NCBI RefSeq assembly: GCF_005771675.1
Contig: NZ_VAJM01000004.1
Coordinates: 186,001 to 250,000, forward strand
Direction: 5' to 3'
Source of the DNA: Hymenobacter jeollabukensis
GTDB taxonomy: Bacteria > Bacteroidota > Bacteroidia > Cytophagales > Hymenobacteraceae
Length of the DNA stretch: 64,000 nucleotides
Shown here: piece after piece, positions 48,518 to 54,006 of the stretch
Layout: every line of letters starts with the position of its first letter
Numbering within the stretch: position 1 is the first letter of the stretch
Translations under genes and position numbers: made by a program
Notes under the pieces: generated by a model
What the model was told of the DNA's origin: nothing
The model's input: the letters and a program-made list of their open reading frames with translations, nothing else
Databases searched by the model: none

Positions 48518-49720
48518 ATGCTTTTCGCCACCGATACCGCCACCAGCTTACTTTCCCAACTGGAGTGCAGCCGCTGCCATGCTCCCTACGAGGCGGGCGT
48601 GCCGCACACCGTCTCCGCCTGCTGCGCCGCGCCGCTGCTGGCCCGCTACGCCCTCGAGGCCGCCCCGCCGCGCAGCGTGCTGCCCGGCCGCGAAGCCACC
48701 ATGTGGCGCTACCGCGAGCTGCTGCCCCTGCACGACGACGCCCACCGCGTGAGCCTGGGCGAGGGCATGACGCCCATCCTGACGCTCGACAACCTGGCCG
48801 CCCGCTACGGGCTGCGTTCCTTGCGCCTCAAGGACGAAGGCCAGAACCCCACCGGTTCGTTCAAGGCCCGCGGCCTGAGCATGGCCGTGTCGATGGCCCG
48901 GGAGCTGGGCGCGGCCGGCTGTATCATCCCCACGGCCGGCAACGCGGGCGTGGCTATGGCGGCCTACTGCGCCAAGGCCGGCCTGCCCGCCACGGTGGTC
49001 ATGCCGCGCCACACGCCCGTCGCCTTTCAGGAAGAATGCCGCTGGTACGGCGCCGACGTGCAGCTGGTCGACGGGCTCATCAACGACTGCGCGGCCCGGG
49101 TGCGCGAGCTGAACGCCGCCGGCCAGCTGCTCGACGTGTCGACGCTGAAGGAGCCGTACCGCATCGAAGGCAAGAAAACCATGGGCTACGAGCTGGCCGA
49201 GCAAGGGGGCTGGCACCTGCCCGACGTCATCCTGTACCCGGCCGGCGGCGGCACCGGCCTCATCGGCATCTGGAAAGCCCTGCGCGAAATGCAGGCCATC
49301 GGCTGGCTGCCGGCCGAGGCCAGGCTGCCGCGCATGGTGGCCGTGCAGGCCGAAAACTGCTGCCCGCTGGTAGCGACGCTGGCCGGCCGGCAGCCCAACT
49401 GCCAGCAGTACCAGGGCCGCCCCACCATTGCCAACGGCCTGGCCGTGCCGCGCCCCCTGGGCGAAGCGCTGATGCTGCAGGTGCTGGCCGAATCCAGCGG
49501 CACGGCCCTGGCCATCGGCGACGAGGATATGCTAACCGGGATGCGCGAGCTGGCGCGGCTGGAAGGCCTGTTCGTGGCCCCGGAAGGCGCGGCCGTGTGG
49601 ATGGCCGCCCGGCAGCTGCTGGCCACCGGCTGGCTGCGCCCCGACGAAGAGCTGCTGCTGCTCAACACCGGCTCGGCCCAGAAATACCTCGACAATGTGC
49701 TGGGCCGCTACGCGCAGTAA
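48518..49720 (+). CDS. thrC: Threonine synthase
   Basis: PLP enzyme turning O-phosphohomoserine into threonine. 400 residues from ATG 48518. PLP lysine K116 in NPTGSFKARG, phosphate loop TAGNAGVAMAAY and AGGGTGLIG, substrate site EGKKTMGYELAEQ. N-terminal Cys pairs (C17-x2-C20 and C35/C36) form a small zinc-ribbon-like head seen in a subset of threonine synthases. Length is in the normal range of the group. The start is that ATG because the earlier frame overlaps the LysR stop region without a leader. Followed by an inverted repeat and terminator. Confidence 0.92.
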   Translation: MLFATDTATSLLSQLECSRCHAPYEAGVPHTVSACCAAPLLARYALEAAPPRSVLPGREATMWRYRELLPLHDDAHRVSLGEGMTPILTLDNLAARYGLRSLRLKDEGQNPTGSFKARGLSMAVSMARELGAAGCIIPTAGNAGVAMAAYCAKAGLPATVVMPRHTPVAFQEECRWYGADVQLVDGLINDCAARVRELNAAGQLLDVSTLKEPYRIEGKKTMGYELAEQGGWHLPDVILYPAGGGTGLIGIWKALREMQAIGWLPAEARLPRMVAVQAENCCPLVATLAGRQPNCQQYQGRPTIANGLAVPRPLGEALMLQVLAESSGTALAIGDEDMLTGMRELARLEGLFVAPEGAAVWMAARQLLATGWLRPDEELLLLNTGSAQKYLDNVLGRYAQ

Positions 49721-49745
49721 GACAATGGGCATCCGGCTAACAGGC

Positions 49746-49820
49746 CGTCGTGCGGAGCGCGGTCGGAGCATCTCTGCCGAACAACGCGGTAGAGATGCTC
49801 CGACCGCGCTCCGCACGACG
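49746..49820. repeat. 34-bp inverted repeat (CGTCGTGCGGAGCGCGGTCG family)
   Basis: Left arm 49746-49779, right arm 49787-49820; 33 of 34 positions pair. The inner GCATCTCTGCCG is shared with the GCATCTCTACCG families, the outer part is new. It lies 26 bp after the thrC stop. Confidence 0.85.
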
Positions 49821-49881
49821 TTTGCTTGCTCGCTGGCCACACGGCCAAAGAAGCGCAACAAGCACTGCCACCAATAACGAA

Positions 49882-49911
49882 AAGGGCCGCGTTCTTCGGA
49901 ACGCGGCCCTT
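49882..49911. terminator. UUCG-loop terminator between convergent genes
   Basis: 13-bp perfect stem (AAGGGCCGCGTTC, 49882-49894, with 49899-49911), TTCG tetraloop. Flanked by AAA on the left, so it suits the minus-strand operon ending at 49936 as well as thrC. Confidence 0.85.
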
Positions 49912-49935
49912 GATTATTCAATACGGCTGATGGCT

Positions 49936-51138
49936 TTAGCCCCGCAGGGCGAAAAACCAGACGTAACCCAGCGTGCCGAACAAAAAGACCCCGAAGAGCG
50001 GGCCGCCGAGGGGCAGGCCCAGGCCCGTCAGCAGCGCGGCGGCCACGCCCACGACGGCCAAGGCCATGCCGGCCCACCTGGACTGCTGCCGGCGCACGGG
50101 GCGCCACTGCCGCTGCGTGCCCACCAGCGGGAAGAGCAGGCCCAGGCCAACCATGCCGAGCATGGTCAGCGCCCCGGTGTGGGTGAAGTAGCCCGCGCCG
50201 AGCACGGCCGCTGCGGCCAGCAGCAGGCCCAGGAAGTGGTTGGAGTTGCGCGTGTCCTCTTCGCTCAGGGCGTGCCGGCCGTAGCGGTTCAGGCGCAGCA
50301 AGGAGTTGAAGATGGGCTCGGCAAACCAGCTCATGTACACCAGCGCCAGGTACAGCGGCAGCAGCACCGGTACCAGGCGCGAGAGCAGAAACAACCCGAT
50401 GAACAGCCCGCGCTGGGCGCCGCTGCCCAGGTTCTGCGTCCAGACCATGAAGCGGTAAAACCAGTTGTAGACCCAGAAGCGGGCCTTGAGCGCCGCCACC
50501 AGTCCTTCGCGGGCGTACTCCAGGGTGGGCTTCAGGCGCAGGGCTTCGCGGAAGTGGACGGCGGCTTCCTGGGCCCGGCCGCGCTCCAGGGCCACCCAGC
50601 CCAGGTCGGCGTAGGTGCCGGCGTCGCCGGGGCTCTGGCGCAGGGCTTCGTCGAGGTCGGCCTGGGCTTCGTCGCGGCGGCCGAGGCGGGCCAGGCAGCG
50701 GGCGCGCAGGCCCAGGCAGTCGACGTGGGTGGGGTCGGTGGCCAGGCCGGCTTCGGCGGCCCGCAGCGCGCCCTGCAACTGCCCGCGCTGAAAGCGAATC
50801 AGGCCGAGCACGTGGTGGTAATCGGCCTCCAGCGGGTCCAGGGCCAGGGCTTCTTCGACGGCCTGCTGGGCGGCCGGCAGCTCGTGCTGGCGCTGCAGGG
50901 TGGCGCTAAGCACGTAGTAGGCAAAGCTGTACTCGGGGTCGGCCGCAATGGCGCGGTGCGCGGTTTCCTGCGCCTCGGGCAGGCGGTCCTGCTCCATCAG
51001 GGCCAGGGCCAGCAGCGTCTGCACGTAAGCGTTTTCGGGGTCGTCGAGCAGCAGGCGGCGGGCTTCCTGCTCGGCGTCGGCCGGGCGTTTGTGCTGCAGC
51101 AGCAGGTGCAGGCGGGCGGTATCCTGGTAGGTAGACAT
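49936..51138 (-). CDS. TPR-repeat membrane protein (operon gene 3)
   Basis: 400 residues from ATG 51138. Residues ~5-245 hold about six TPR units (RPADAEQEARRLLLDDPENAYVQTLLALALMEQD...); ~245-400 hold a hydrophobic region of about five membrane segments (GLFIGLFLLSRLVPVLLPLYLALVY, FLGLLLAAAAVLGAGYF, MLGMVGLGLLFPL, AGMALAVVGVAAALLTGLGL, FGVFLFGTLGYVWFFAL). It is a paralogue of the gene before it, with the same TPR-then-membrane order and WxxxFYRFM-type junction. 32 bp after that gene's stop, same operon as the AAA+ gene. No known family; a membrane scaffold for the ATPase is inferred. Confidence 0.8.
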   Translation of the reverse strand: MSTYQDTARLHLLLQHKRPADAEQEARRLLLDDPENAYVQTLLALALMEQDRLPEAQETAHRAIAADPEYSFAYYVLSATLQRQHELPAAQQAVEEALALDPLEADYHHVLGLIRFQRGQLQGALRAAEAGLATDPTHVDCLGLRARCLARLGRRDEAQADLDEALRQSPGDAGTYADLGWVALERGRAQEAAVHFREALRLKPTLEYAREGLVAALKARFWVYNWFYRFMVWTQNLGSGAQRGLFIGLFLLSRLVPVLLPLYLALVYMSWFAEPIFNSLLRLNRYGRHALSEEDTRNSNHFLGLLLAAAAVLGAGYFTHTGALTMLGMVGLGLLFPLVGTQRQWRPVRRQQSRWAGMALAVVGVAAALLTGLGLPLGGPLFGVFLFGTLGYVWFFALRG

Positions 51139-51170
51139 AGCGGAATCAAGCGGAAGACAGCGGGGAGGAG

Positions 51171-52445
51171 CTAGTCGGTGCGGGCGGCCCGCCGGGCGCG
51201 GCGGATGCGCAAGAATAACAGCCCGCCGGTGAGCAGCAGGGTAAGCGGCGGGGCACCCCAGCGCCAGAGGGCTTCCCACGCCGCCGCCGTCAGGCTAGCC
51301 GCCAGCATTGCCGCCGCCATCAACAACCAGGGCAGTGGCGACTTGTCGGGCAAAGGGTCCGTCGCAGCCGCTCTAAACGCCGCCGTGACACCGGCCACGG
51401 TGGCCACCAAGCCGCCGGTCAGCCCGGGACCCAGGGCGCTTTCGGGCACCCCTAGCTGCAACAGGCTCCAAACCAATCCCGGCAGCAAGGCCAGGCCCAG
51501 CAGCAGCCACGAAACCAGCGGGCCGTAGCGGTACAGCGTCTGCCGGGCGTAGGACCCAGTGCTGTCGGGCCGCGCGCGCAGGCGCCGGATGCCCGGGTGC
51601 AGCCGCCAGTACGCCGCTTCGAAGCCCAGAAACAGCAGCAGCGGAATGCACAGCAGGCTGAGCGGGATAAGAATCAGCAGAAAGTGGCCCCAGGCCCGCA
51701 GCTGCCCGCGCTGGGTGCCCTCCGAAATGAATGTCAGGTAGCGCTGCAGGCGCCAGCTCAGGCGGCCGTGCCACGACAACAGGCGCAGGGCCTGGGCGGC
51801 ACCGAGGCGCGCCGGCTCGTTGCCGGGTTCCAGGCGCAGCGCCTCCCGAAAATGGCTCTGCGCCGCCGCAAATGCTTCTTGGCGTAGCGCCTCGCGGCCC
51901 AGTAGGCGGTGCGTGATGGCGTGGTCGGAGCGTGCCCGTTGCAGCTGCTCCAGCGCTTCGGGCAGCTGCGCCCAGGCTTGCAGGCCGTGCAGCGCTTCCA
52001 CCCGCTGCACCAGGCATTCGGCGTGCTGTGCGTCGAGAGCGAGGCCCCGCTCGGCTTCCTGTTGGGCTTGGGCAAACTGCCCCTGCTGATTCAGAAACCA
52101 GGCGTGCGTACCCAAGTACTTGGGGCTGAGCGGCTGCAGCCGCAAGGCGTGCCCAATGGCCCGGAGCGCGGCGGGCAAATAGCCCTGCCGCTGGCTGATC
52201 AGGCCCAGCAGGTAGTAGGCTTCGTTGGATTGCGGCTCCAGGCCCAGGGCCGTCAGCACGGCTTCGCGGGCCGCGGGCAGCCGCGCCTGGCGCAGCAGGG
52301 CCAGCCCCAGCAAGGTGTGGGCAAAGGCGTGGCGCGGCTGCGCCAGCAGGTGCCGGCGTATCACCTGCTCCGCCTCGGCGGGCCGGCGCACGGCCAGCAG
52401 GTGCTGCGCGGCCTCCTCCCAGCGGCCGTCCTCCATCTGCGGCAT
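51171..52445 (-). CDS. TPR-repeat membrane protein (operon gene 2)
   Basis: 424 residues from ATG 52445. TPR array ~10-235 (RPAEAEQVIRRHLLAQPRHAFAHTLLGLALL...), a Trp/Arg-rich junction (LSWHGRLSWRLQRYL), then about six hydrophobic segments and a short basic C terminus (IRRARRAARTD). 7 bp after the stop of the AAA+ gene, so translation may be coupled. Paralogue of gene 3 but diverged, implying two distinct subunits of one complex. No function known. Confidence 0.8.
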   Translation of the reverse strand: MPQMEDGRWEEAAQHLLAVRRPAEAEQVIRRHLLAQPRHAFAHTLLGLALLRQARLPAAREAVLTALGLEPQSNEAYYLLGLISQRQGYLPAALRAIGHALRLQPLSPKYLGTHAWFLNQQGQFAQAQQEAERGLALDAQHAECLVQRVEALHGLQAWAQLPEALEQLQRARSDHAITHRLLGREALRQEAFAAAQSHFREALRLEPGNEPARLGAAQALRLLSWHGRLSWRLQRYLTFISEGTQRGQLRAWGHFLLILIPLSLLCIPLLLFLGFEAAYWRLHPGIRRLRARPDSTGSYARQTLYRYGPLVSWLLLGLALLPGLVWSLLQLGVPESALGPGLTGGLVATVAGVTAAFRAAATDPLPDKSPLPWLLMAAAMLAASLTAAAWEALWRWGAPPLTLLLTGGLLFLRIRRARRAARTD

Positions 52446-52452
52446 GGCGCGG

Positions 52453-53826
52453 CTACTTCTTGATGCCTAGATAAGTGAGGATGTCGTCGTAGGTACCGCC
52501 CTCGTTGGAGTACAGGGCGTAGTTTTTGGCCGTGGCAAACCACTCCTTGGTGCTCGGCCGCACCTGCTTGGCGGCGCCCAGCAGGTCGCTTTGTTGCACC
52601 GGCAGCGGCCGCCCCGCCCGCATCGACTCGCGCAGGCGGGTCTCCACGCCCTGGTCGACCACGGCTTTGAGGTCGGCGCCCGAGAAGCCGGCGGTCTGGG
52701 CGGCCACGGCTTTCAGGTTCAGCTGCTCGTCGACGGGCTTGCCGCGCAGCATCACGTCCAGGATGGCTTCGCGGGCGGGCTCGTCGGGCGGGGTTACCAG
52801 TACGATGCGGTCGAAGCGGCCGGGGCGGCGGAAGGCGGGGTCGAGGTGCCAGGGCGCGTTGGTGGCGGCTAGGATGAGCACGCCGTCGTTGGAGCGGCGG
52901 GCGCCGTCGAGCTCCTCCAGAAACTGGTTGATGAGGGTGCGGCCGGCACTCTGGCGCAGGTCGTGGCGGTTGGCGGCCAGCGCGTCCACCTCGTCGAAAA
53001 ACAGCACGCAGGGCGCCTGCATCCGGGCCAGCTCGAACAGCTCGTGCAGCTTCTTCTCACTCTGACCCAGCCACATGTCCAGAATGTCGCTGATGCCCAC
53101 GTGGATAAACGAGGCCTTTACCTCGCCGGCCGTGGCCCGGGCCAGGTAGGTTTTGCCGCAGCCGGGCGGGCCGTAGAGCAGCAGCCCGCCGCCCGCGGCC
53201 TTGCCGTAGGCCTTGTAGAGGTCGGCAAACTGCAGCGGGTGGATGATTTTGAGGCGGATTTCCTCTTTTACCGCTTCCATGCCGCCTACTTCCGCGAAGG
53301 TGATGGTGGGCTTTTCGAGGCCGGCAAACAGCGCCTTCTCATCCAGCCCGGCAGGCGAGATGCTGGCGGTGTACTCGGTGGAGCCGCCGCCGGTGGCCGG
53401 GCGGGCGGCGGGGCGCAGGCCCAGCTGCTCGTCCAGCTCGGCGTCGCGCAGCCCGGCGTCGAGCTGCAGGGCCTGCTGGTAGGCGTGGCGGGCTTCGTCG
53501 GGCGGGCCGCCGGCGCGGGCCAGCAGGCGGGCGTGCAGCAAGTGGGCGCGGGCGTGCTCGGGCTGCGCGTGCAGCAGCTCTTCCAGCACCACCAGGGCGG
53601 CCGAGGTCTTGCCCAGGGCGGCGTAGGTTTCGGCCAGTCCCAGCTGCAGCTCGGCGTCGTGGGGGGCTTGGCGCAGGCCGGCGCGGTAGTGCTCGTCGGC
53701 CTCGGTCAGGCGGCCGAGCTGGCGCAGCAGGGCGGCCACGTGGCGACGCAGCGGGAGGTTGTCGGGCGAAAAAGCCAGCGCGTCGAGCAGCGGCTGCAAG
53801 TCGGAAGGATTCGGTACGGCGGACAT
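52453..53826 (-). CDS. TPR-fused AAA+ ATPase (operon gene 1)
   Basis: 457 residues from ATG 53826 (a TTG earlier in frame is less likely). TPR units at ~30-125 (ADEHYRAGLRQAPHDAELQLGLAETYAALGK). Classical-clade AAA+ domain from ~175: Walker A GPPGCGKT (219-226), Walker B FFDEVD with D278/E279, sensor-1 N323 in ATN, arginine-finger region FRRPGRFDR (332-340), and the C-terminal helical lid (GFSGADLKAVVDQGVETRLRES). Looks like an unfoldase or remodeller of CDC48/katanin type with no protease domain. First gene of the three-gene operon with two TPR membrane proteins. Confidence 0.88.
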   Translation of the reverse strand: MSAVPNPSDLQPLLDALAFSPDNLPLRRHVAALLRQLGRLTEADEHYRAGLRQAPHDAELQLGLAETYAALGKTSAALVVLEELLHAQPEHARAHLLHARLLARAGGPPDEARHAYQQALQLDAGLRDAELDEQLGLRPAARPATGGGSTEYTASISPAGLDEKALFAGLEKPTITFAEVGGMEAVKEEIRLKIIHPLQFADLYKAYGKAAGGGLLLYGPPGCGKTYLARATAGEVKASFIHVGISDILDMWLGQSEKKLHELFELARMQAPCVLFFDEVDALAANRHDLRQSAGRTLINQFLEELDGARRSNDGVLILAATNAPWHLDPAFRRPGRFDRIVLVTPPDEPAREAILDVMLRGKPVDEQLNLKAVAAQTAGFSGADLKAVVDQGVETRLRESMRAGRPLPVQQSDLLGAAKQVRPSTKEWFATAKNYALYSNEGGTYDDILTYLGIKK

Positions 53827-54006
53827 TACACGCGAAACGGGTTCGATCTGCAAGCTACGGCTTTCGCCGGCCAGCGGGGAAAACGAAAGCGGATGCTGCT
53901 AAACCGGAAAAAAATAAATTTTAGCGCCTAGTCTATTATAAAGAGGGGTGTCGGGCGTTGCAATCGTTTGCTATTCGGAGTTAATGCCTATCGATAGAAG
54001 GGGGTG

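Follow-up and report, generated by a model that had tools for sequence, protein, structure and literature searches.

The window, a 64,000-nucleotide stretch of the Hymenobacter jeollabukensis genome, contains an operon of three minus-strand genes. Gene 1 (52453-53826; 457 aa from its ATG) encodes a TPR-AAA+ ATPase, gene 2 (51171-52445; 424 aa) a variable TPR-membrane cassette, classified as type A in our scheme, and gene 3 (49936-51138; 400 aa from its ATG, the longest ORF extending upstream to a GTG at 51279) a constant TPR-membrane partner. The genes are separated by 7 and 32 bp, and gene 3 is followed on the same strand by a terminator-like hairpin (49911-49882) of 13 pairs with a T-rich tail; ORF coordinates and hairpin thus agree with a preliminary description of the locus as three tightly packed genes with a single terminator. 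Upstream of gene 1, a minus-strand sigma-70-like promoter match (53935-53963, 10 out of 12 positions) is weak evidence, as Bacteroidota promoters deviate from the sigma-70 type.

The ATPase

The gene 1 protein comprises N-terminal TPR helices (residues 7-122), a linker (residues 142-161), one classical AAA+ domain with core and lid from about residue 165, and a conserved C-terminal tail. Pfam reports AAA (PF00004, 8.2e-41), AAA_lid_3, and TPRs, and the predicted structure has a pLDDT of 91.9 (below 50 in the linker) and a pTM of 0.66. Among 68 aligned family members, the Walker A, Walker B, sensor-1 (N323), and arginine (R334 and R337) positions that we examined are invariant, as are the tail residue W429 and the P-W motif after sensor 1 (P325 and W326), and pore-loop position 252 is aromatic (W in 54, Y in 13, F in 1). 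Four of the 68 are too short for the N-terminal TPRs to fit. Neither Pfam nor a curated profile scan detected a protease domain above cut-off in genes 1-3. Gene 1 is therefore, as first described, a full AAA+ ATPase with TPRs and without a protease. By established AAA+ biochemistry, the retention of the catalytic and pore-loop residues indicates an ATP-driven polypeptide translocase, a prediction that we regard as well supported, and since it carries neither a protease nor a fused effector, disassembly or extraction is indicated.

At one locus (L183, G071:C1:2208826-2210198) the ATPase frame consists of two overlapping pieces with 86% and 76% identity, representing either a decayed gene or an assembly error; a variable and a constant TPR gene persist downstream. 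At another (L217, G381:C11:119570-120856) the match crosses one TGA in a gene that otherwise aligns well. The source genome also encodes a Ycf46-like AAA+ protein of 518 aa (L003, G000:C5:7212-7796) with 33% identity to the ATPase core.

A fold search with the AAA model retrieved the p97 D2 domain with a Z of 28.8 (rmsd 2.2, 264 residues), and Vps4 (archaeal entry 4d82) and spastin with a Z of 27.2 each; two-domain p97 chains fill the PDB similarity list because both domains are summed. The likeness to p97/Cdc48 resides in the fold of the AAA+ core and lid, and Cdc48 has an aromatic pore loop as well. In contrast to the two tandem AAA+ domains and N domain of Cdc48, however, gene 1 has a single AAA stretch (TIGR01243 scored 216.6 bits, its cut-off being 802.65), carries TPRs where Cdc48 has the N domain, and possesses the P-W motif, which is typical of Vps4, katanin, and spastin but not of Cdc48. 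With Vps4/CdvC it shares a single AAA domain and a helical N-terminal part, and differs in that TPRs replace the MIT domain (none was found in gene 1 by Pfam at E ≤0.001), that Pfam reports no Vps4 C-terminal domain, that no third gene recurs widely beside it among the 40 largest neighbour clusters, and that the membrane partner is integral. The CdvC model reached 169.7 bits (cut-off 650) and the Vps4 fold match differs from that of p97 by no more than about 1.6 Z; neither sequence nor fold scores discriminate between Vps4 and p97 D2.

The zinc-protease domain of FtsH was not found in gene 1, the model TIGR01241 matching the AAA part only, with 212.8 bits (cut-off 600); a separate FtsH-like ORF, named by eye, is present in the source genome (L002). 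Scores for the IetA/IteA ATPase of the IetAS defence system were similarly far from the threshold, with 118.8 bits for NF042959 (cut-off 510) and 119.7 bits for the PADLOC IetA model, the latter over residues 173-397 only.

These comparisons bear on the possibility of an ESCRT-IV-like role, whereby a Vps4-type ATPase of archaeal origin would disassemble assemblies of TPR-membrane proteins, its clients, and thereby remodel the membrane. The P-W motif in all 68 ATPases and the presence of Vps4 among the fold matches are consistent with such a role, as is the reading of bacterial ATPases of this kind as VPS4-like in section 18 of PMC11237479. Nevertheless, Pfam detected neither an MIT nor a Vps4 C-terminal domain, and the scores do not favor Vps4 over p97 D2. 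PspA, a bacterial relative of ESCRT-III, is missing in 6 of 15 genomes with the module, which argues against an obligate partner, and we consider an ESCRT-IV-like role unlikely. The PspA family was found in 9 of 15 genomes without the module (one a weak partial match), and the view of PspA as an obligate client is likewise not supported. Membrane remodelling in a general sense, as initially proposed, is a possible role.

The TPR-membrane partners

Genes 2 and 3 match only TPR-type families in Pfam, and their hydrophobic half is claimed by no Pfam model. The Pfam matches of 54 partners fall into 123 families, of which the 25 most frequent represent TPRs or other helical repeats, and the matches listed in the fold search are likewise of TPR type; we accordingly claim no new fold. 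The AlphaFold2 model of gene 3 (pLDDT 95.7, pTM 0.89) contains twelve paired helices forming six TPR hairpins (residues 2-202), followed from about residue 207 by long helices, of which the hydrophobic ones start at about 246-257. Most partners have 3-6 hydrophobic segments in a simple scan. The partners do not start like signal peptides, and basic residues precede the first membrane helix; both features, judged by eye, suggest that the TPRs face the cytosol.

Smaller versions of the partner also occur. In Paenibacillus and Cohnella (L083, L090, and L092), a minimal form combines an ATPase of about 320 aa, devoid of N-terminal TPRs, with a partner of about 290 aa that has one predicted membrane helix. 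At L179 and L180, the gene after the ATPase encodes a TPR protein of 253-256 aa with no predicted membrane helices, and no constant gene was found; these loci may represent a soluble form of the module.

Genes 2 and 3 are paralogous (41% identity across gene 3 residues 8-268, 3.7e-35), as the preliminary description stated, both with TPRs followed by membrane helices, but they are not an equal pair: the constant role falls to gene 3, and gene 2 belongs to the exchangeable cassettes. The 58 loci of the family contain, downstream of the ATPase, a total of 63 low-scoring (variable) TPR-membrane genes, with 0-3 divergent cassettes between the ATPase and the constant gene, and a high-scoring (constant) gene is present at 54 loci. 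The two kinds were split at a profile score of 400; because six of the nine partners that seeded the profile come from these loci, the split is somewhat circular, but it is supported by gene order, as the constant gene is the last one in 45 out of 45 loci carrying both kinds. Nine loci have no variable cassette, including L020 with two constant-like genes, and four have no constant gene, one of them near a contig end.

For 79 pairs of loci with ATPases at least 90% identical, the median identity of the constant partner is 87% (72-98), versus 70% (17-98) for the best-matching cassette in 68 of these pairs; the pairs are non-independent, and identity was taken as the best local match over the shorter protein. 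In random pairs, the TPR and membrane halves are 35% and 30% identical for variable partners (143 pairs), compared to 56% and 50% for constant ones (148 pairs). The operon of the window and that of its sister illustrate the difference, with identities of 95% for the ATPase, 92% for the constant gene, and 17% for the middle gene.

Distribution and linkage

Counting the source genome each time, ATPase orthologues were found in 9 of 58 relatives (E 1e-50), in 2 of 8 genomes of the genus (E 1e-90), in 58 of 204 genomes of the family (E 1e-90; one with a broken frame), and in 8 of 395 genomes of an even Bacteroidota sample (E 1e-85). A wider scan of species genomes, using ten aligned ATPases as the query, retrieved at least 80 loci, labelled as Bacteroidota, Planctomycetota, Verrucomicrobiota, Actinomycetota, and Bacillota (Paenibacillus and relatives), with Cyanobacteriota, Chloroflexota, and Fibrobacterota represented by metagenome bins alone. 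The module thus extends to seven phyla beyond Bacteroidota, three of them known from bins whose labels may be wrong; the same caution applies to further loci from bins labelled proteobacterium and Nealsonbacteria. In Actinomycetota, the module is also found on replicons labelled plasmids. One such record, of 11.85 Mb from Nonomuraea (L013, NZ_LT559118.1), is probably the chromosome.

Outside the family set, 90 loci have a recognised ATPase, 87 of them with at least 400 nt of downstream sequence. In 77 of these 87, no more than 250 nt separate the ATPase stop from the start of a TPR partner, and the two genes often overlap; the partner lies farther away in L048 (333 nt) and L080 (1507 nt). The profile detected no downstream partner in the remaining 8 loci, among them L079, which has a TPR gene upstream instead. 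Conversely, the search with gene 3 (E ≤1e-12) gave 18 hits in 9 out of 9 genomes with the module, every one inside the operon, and none was found at this threshold in the three searched genomes without the module. The ATPase and TPR-membrane pair is a real conserved module, recurring across phyla beyond chance. The question of whether these families occur together elsewhere is hence answered by the neighbourhood survey: the linkage reaches far beyond this strain.

Exchange of the cassettes

The operon of the window and L016 are 93% identical in DNA up to 7 nt past the ATPase stop, and similarity resumes at 91% from the constant gene; between these points, gene 2 and the middle gene of L016 have no blastn similarity. 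Sharp swaps also separate L150 from L151 and L166 from L167, and the L132/L134 pair shows a clean indel of one 1.3 kb cassette running from the ATPase stop to the constant-gene start. In L133/L138 and L148/L149, the cassette is present in one member only and is replaced in the other by about 170 and 370 nt, respectively, of different sequence. In seven further swapped pairs, up to the initial 90-440 nt of the cassette are retained. Cassettes are thus swapped, gained, or lost as units, at or near gene edges.

On a tree of 53 loci built from the ATPase and constant gene with a quick method (support of 99-100 by one test; L020 was flagged as a long branch), cassette types A, D, E, and I are each found at more than one separate position, and sister loci carry different types (L154 with D and L161 with I; L150 with A and L151 with I). 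The tree requires 25 changes of type, where 18 states need 17. It is possible that part of this replacement reflects differential loss from a multi-cassette ancestor, but none of the 14 loci in the A/D/I/O/P clade has more than one cassette.

Synonymous divergence was compared in 14 pairs chosen because the same cassette type occurs in distant parts of the tree. The dS of the cassette exceeds that of the ATPase in all 9 computable pairs (e.g., 2.28 vs 0.48 for the window and L132, 1.34 vs 0.63 for L154/L157, and 1.23 vs 0.58 for L017/L171), the other 5 being saturated. In 8 chosen close pairs the difference goes either way (cassette vs ATPase 0.18 vs 0.30 for L157/L159, 0.43 vs 0.83 for L152/L155, and 0.61 vs 0.54 for L158/L162). 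These dS values come from simple counts, and codon bias differs between the genes (GC3 of 86 for the window cassette vs 90-92 for its neighbours). In all 8 close pairs, the omega of the cassette (0.07-0.29) is higher than that of the ATPase (0.03-0.09), and in L176/L177 the constant gene exceeds the cassette (0.26 vs 0.19). On the whole, the cassettes are under purifying selection.

The operon also comes and goes as a whole. In a sister species (G001), 395 bp replace the segment at 49708-53998, and the flanks are 89% identical on both sides. The flanking genes encode a PLP-dependent enzyme (threonine-synthase-like by eye) and an ammonium transporter, the latter 98% identical between G001 and the window. 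In G006 the two flanking genes are joined, the operon being replaced by about 260 bp, and in G007 and G005 a peptidase-like gene lies between them at the site where the operon is absent. In G003, matches were limited to the transporter and a short region upstream, and the transporter search gave no match in G004. In another genus (G146) the operon again adjoins an ammonium transporter gene, suggesting that its position is likely old, with repeated loss.

Genomic context

At 61 loci, 530 neighbour ORFs were called, of which 389 were in the size range, 280 were coding-like, and 260 were scanned with PADLOC. Among the 40 largest neighbour clusters, those joining distant lineages cover at most 6 loci each and are transporter-like and dehydrogenase families, named by eye, and the others join close relatives with a common gene order. 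At the level of these 40 clusters, no widely recurring third family was seen beside the pair.

Patchy presence in the family, whole-operon indels, exchange of cassettes, and a cassette omega above that of the ATPase in 8 of 8 pairs would all be expected of a conflict or defence system, in which the cassettes would sense phage, toxin, or competitor proteins, the ATPase would execute the response, and turnover would follow from an arms race. The genomic context offers little in its favor. PADLOC gave few matches on the 260 neighbour ORFs, mostly one ORF each in the 25 of 27 families listed, these being raw counts from the module neighbourhoods alone; the models include DpdF, PsyrT, BREX helicase, restriction, mads, Zorya-like MotB, RtcR-type CARF, DRT reverse transcriptase, and PDC-M03. 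For 140 of these ORFs searched with Pfam, the commonest families (25 of 151 listed) look housekeeping, and no effector-like family recurs among the 40 largest clusters. A defence island was accordingly rejected, no recurrent defence neighbour having been seen among the ORFs scanned. On the ATPase itself, the only PADLOC matches (IetA, TRIP13, and mad8) are confined to stretches of the AAA core, and none of the at least 80 viral-contig loci listed (identity at most 41%) was seen to have N-terminal TPRs, so that no viral carriage was found among them. Together with the purifying selection on the cassettes, these results make a defence function doubtful.

Envelope, secretion, and gliding machines commonly contain TPR and membrane proteins, and the module could similarly be a dedicated part of such a machine encoded elsewhere. 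The lack of a consistent neighbour gene among the 40 largest clusters, the matches to secretion and motility TPR families far under their cut-offs, and the occurrence of the module in both monoderm and diderm phyla make this very improbable.

Discussion

The preliminary description knew of no system with this composition, which was too strong: one sentence in section 18 of PMC11237479, with one example accession (ACB74714.1), reports VPS4-like ATPases transferred from archaea to bacteria and an adjoining TPR-6TM gene. The composition in words is the same, a classical AAA+ gene beside a gene with TPRs and about six membrane helices, and it corresponds to the Pfam matches and the gene 3 model and to the arrangement in 77 of 87 loci described here; from this comparison of descriptions, the two very probably belong to the same family. 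Our literature search found the pair described only there, and not in the parts seen of PMC7159879, PMC10659427, PMC11188069, and PMC13051332. Constant and variable partners, cassette exchange, the N-terminal TPRs of the ATPase, and prevalence do not feature in that section, and the first two, like empty sites, were not encountered in the texts searched, supplements being outside the scope. The pair itself is thus already in print, and the design with a constant and a variable partner, the cassette exchange, and the empty sites are new here.

We propose, with a probability of about 0.5, that the module is a membrane-tethered AAA+ unfoldase or segregase in which a constant anchor is combined with interchangeable adaptors that select clients. 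The ATPase would act as a cytosolic translocase, presumably hexameric, with a Vps4/p97-like motor, and the TPR-membrane proteins would tether it through physical contact to the inner face of the cytoplasmic membrane. The constant last-gene partner would serve as a general anchor, and the exchangeable cassettes as adaptors or receptors choosing a membrane or membrane-bound protein for the motor. The client would then be threaded, leading to unfolding, extraction, or complex disassembly without proteolysis. Tethering would not be uniform, given the partners with one membrane helix (Paenibacillus) or none (L179 and L180) and the 4 short ATPases among 68. The main alternative is that the partners could be clients rather than adaptors.

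Motors of this type at a membrane have precedents in Pex1/Pex6 with Pex15/Pex26, where the motor is recruited by an anchored adaptor, and in Msp1/ATAD1. Both are eukaryotic systems with anchors unrelated to the TPR-membrane proteins, and we know of no swapping of adaptor alleles in either. A more far-reaching version, which we regard as rather unlikely, is a new class of bacterial recognition machine in which a conserved AAA+ segregase is combined with fast-changing TPR-membrane receptors. These allelic cassettes would be exchanged among related strains by recombination and would determine the foreign or variable membrane protein to be dismantled. If true, this would be a membrane counterpart of modular specificity systems.

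In summary, a tethered unfoldase or segregase as proposed above would constitute a protease-free AAA+ motor at the bacterial membrane, found in many phyla, dispensable, and equipped with interchangeable membrane partners. The module is widespread yet little noticed, and it bears on how Vps4/p97-type motors gain new jobs. Moreover, natural swaps, in which the motor and constant partner are the same and the cassette differs, make client choice testable by gene exchange.
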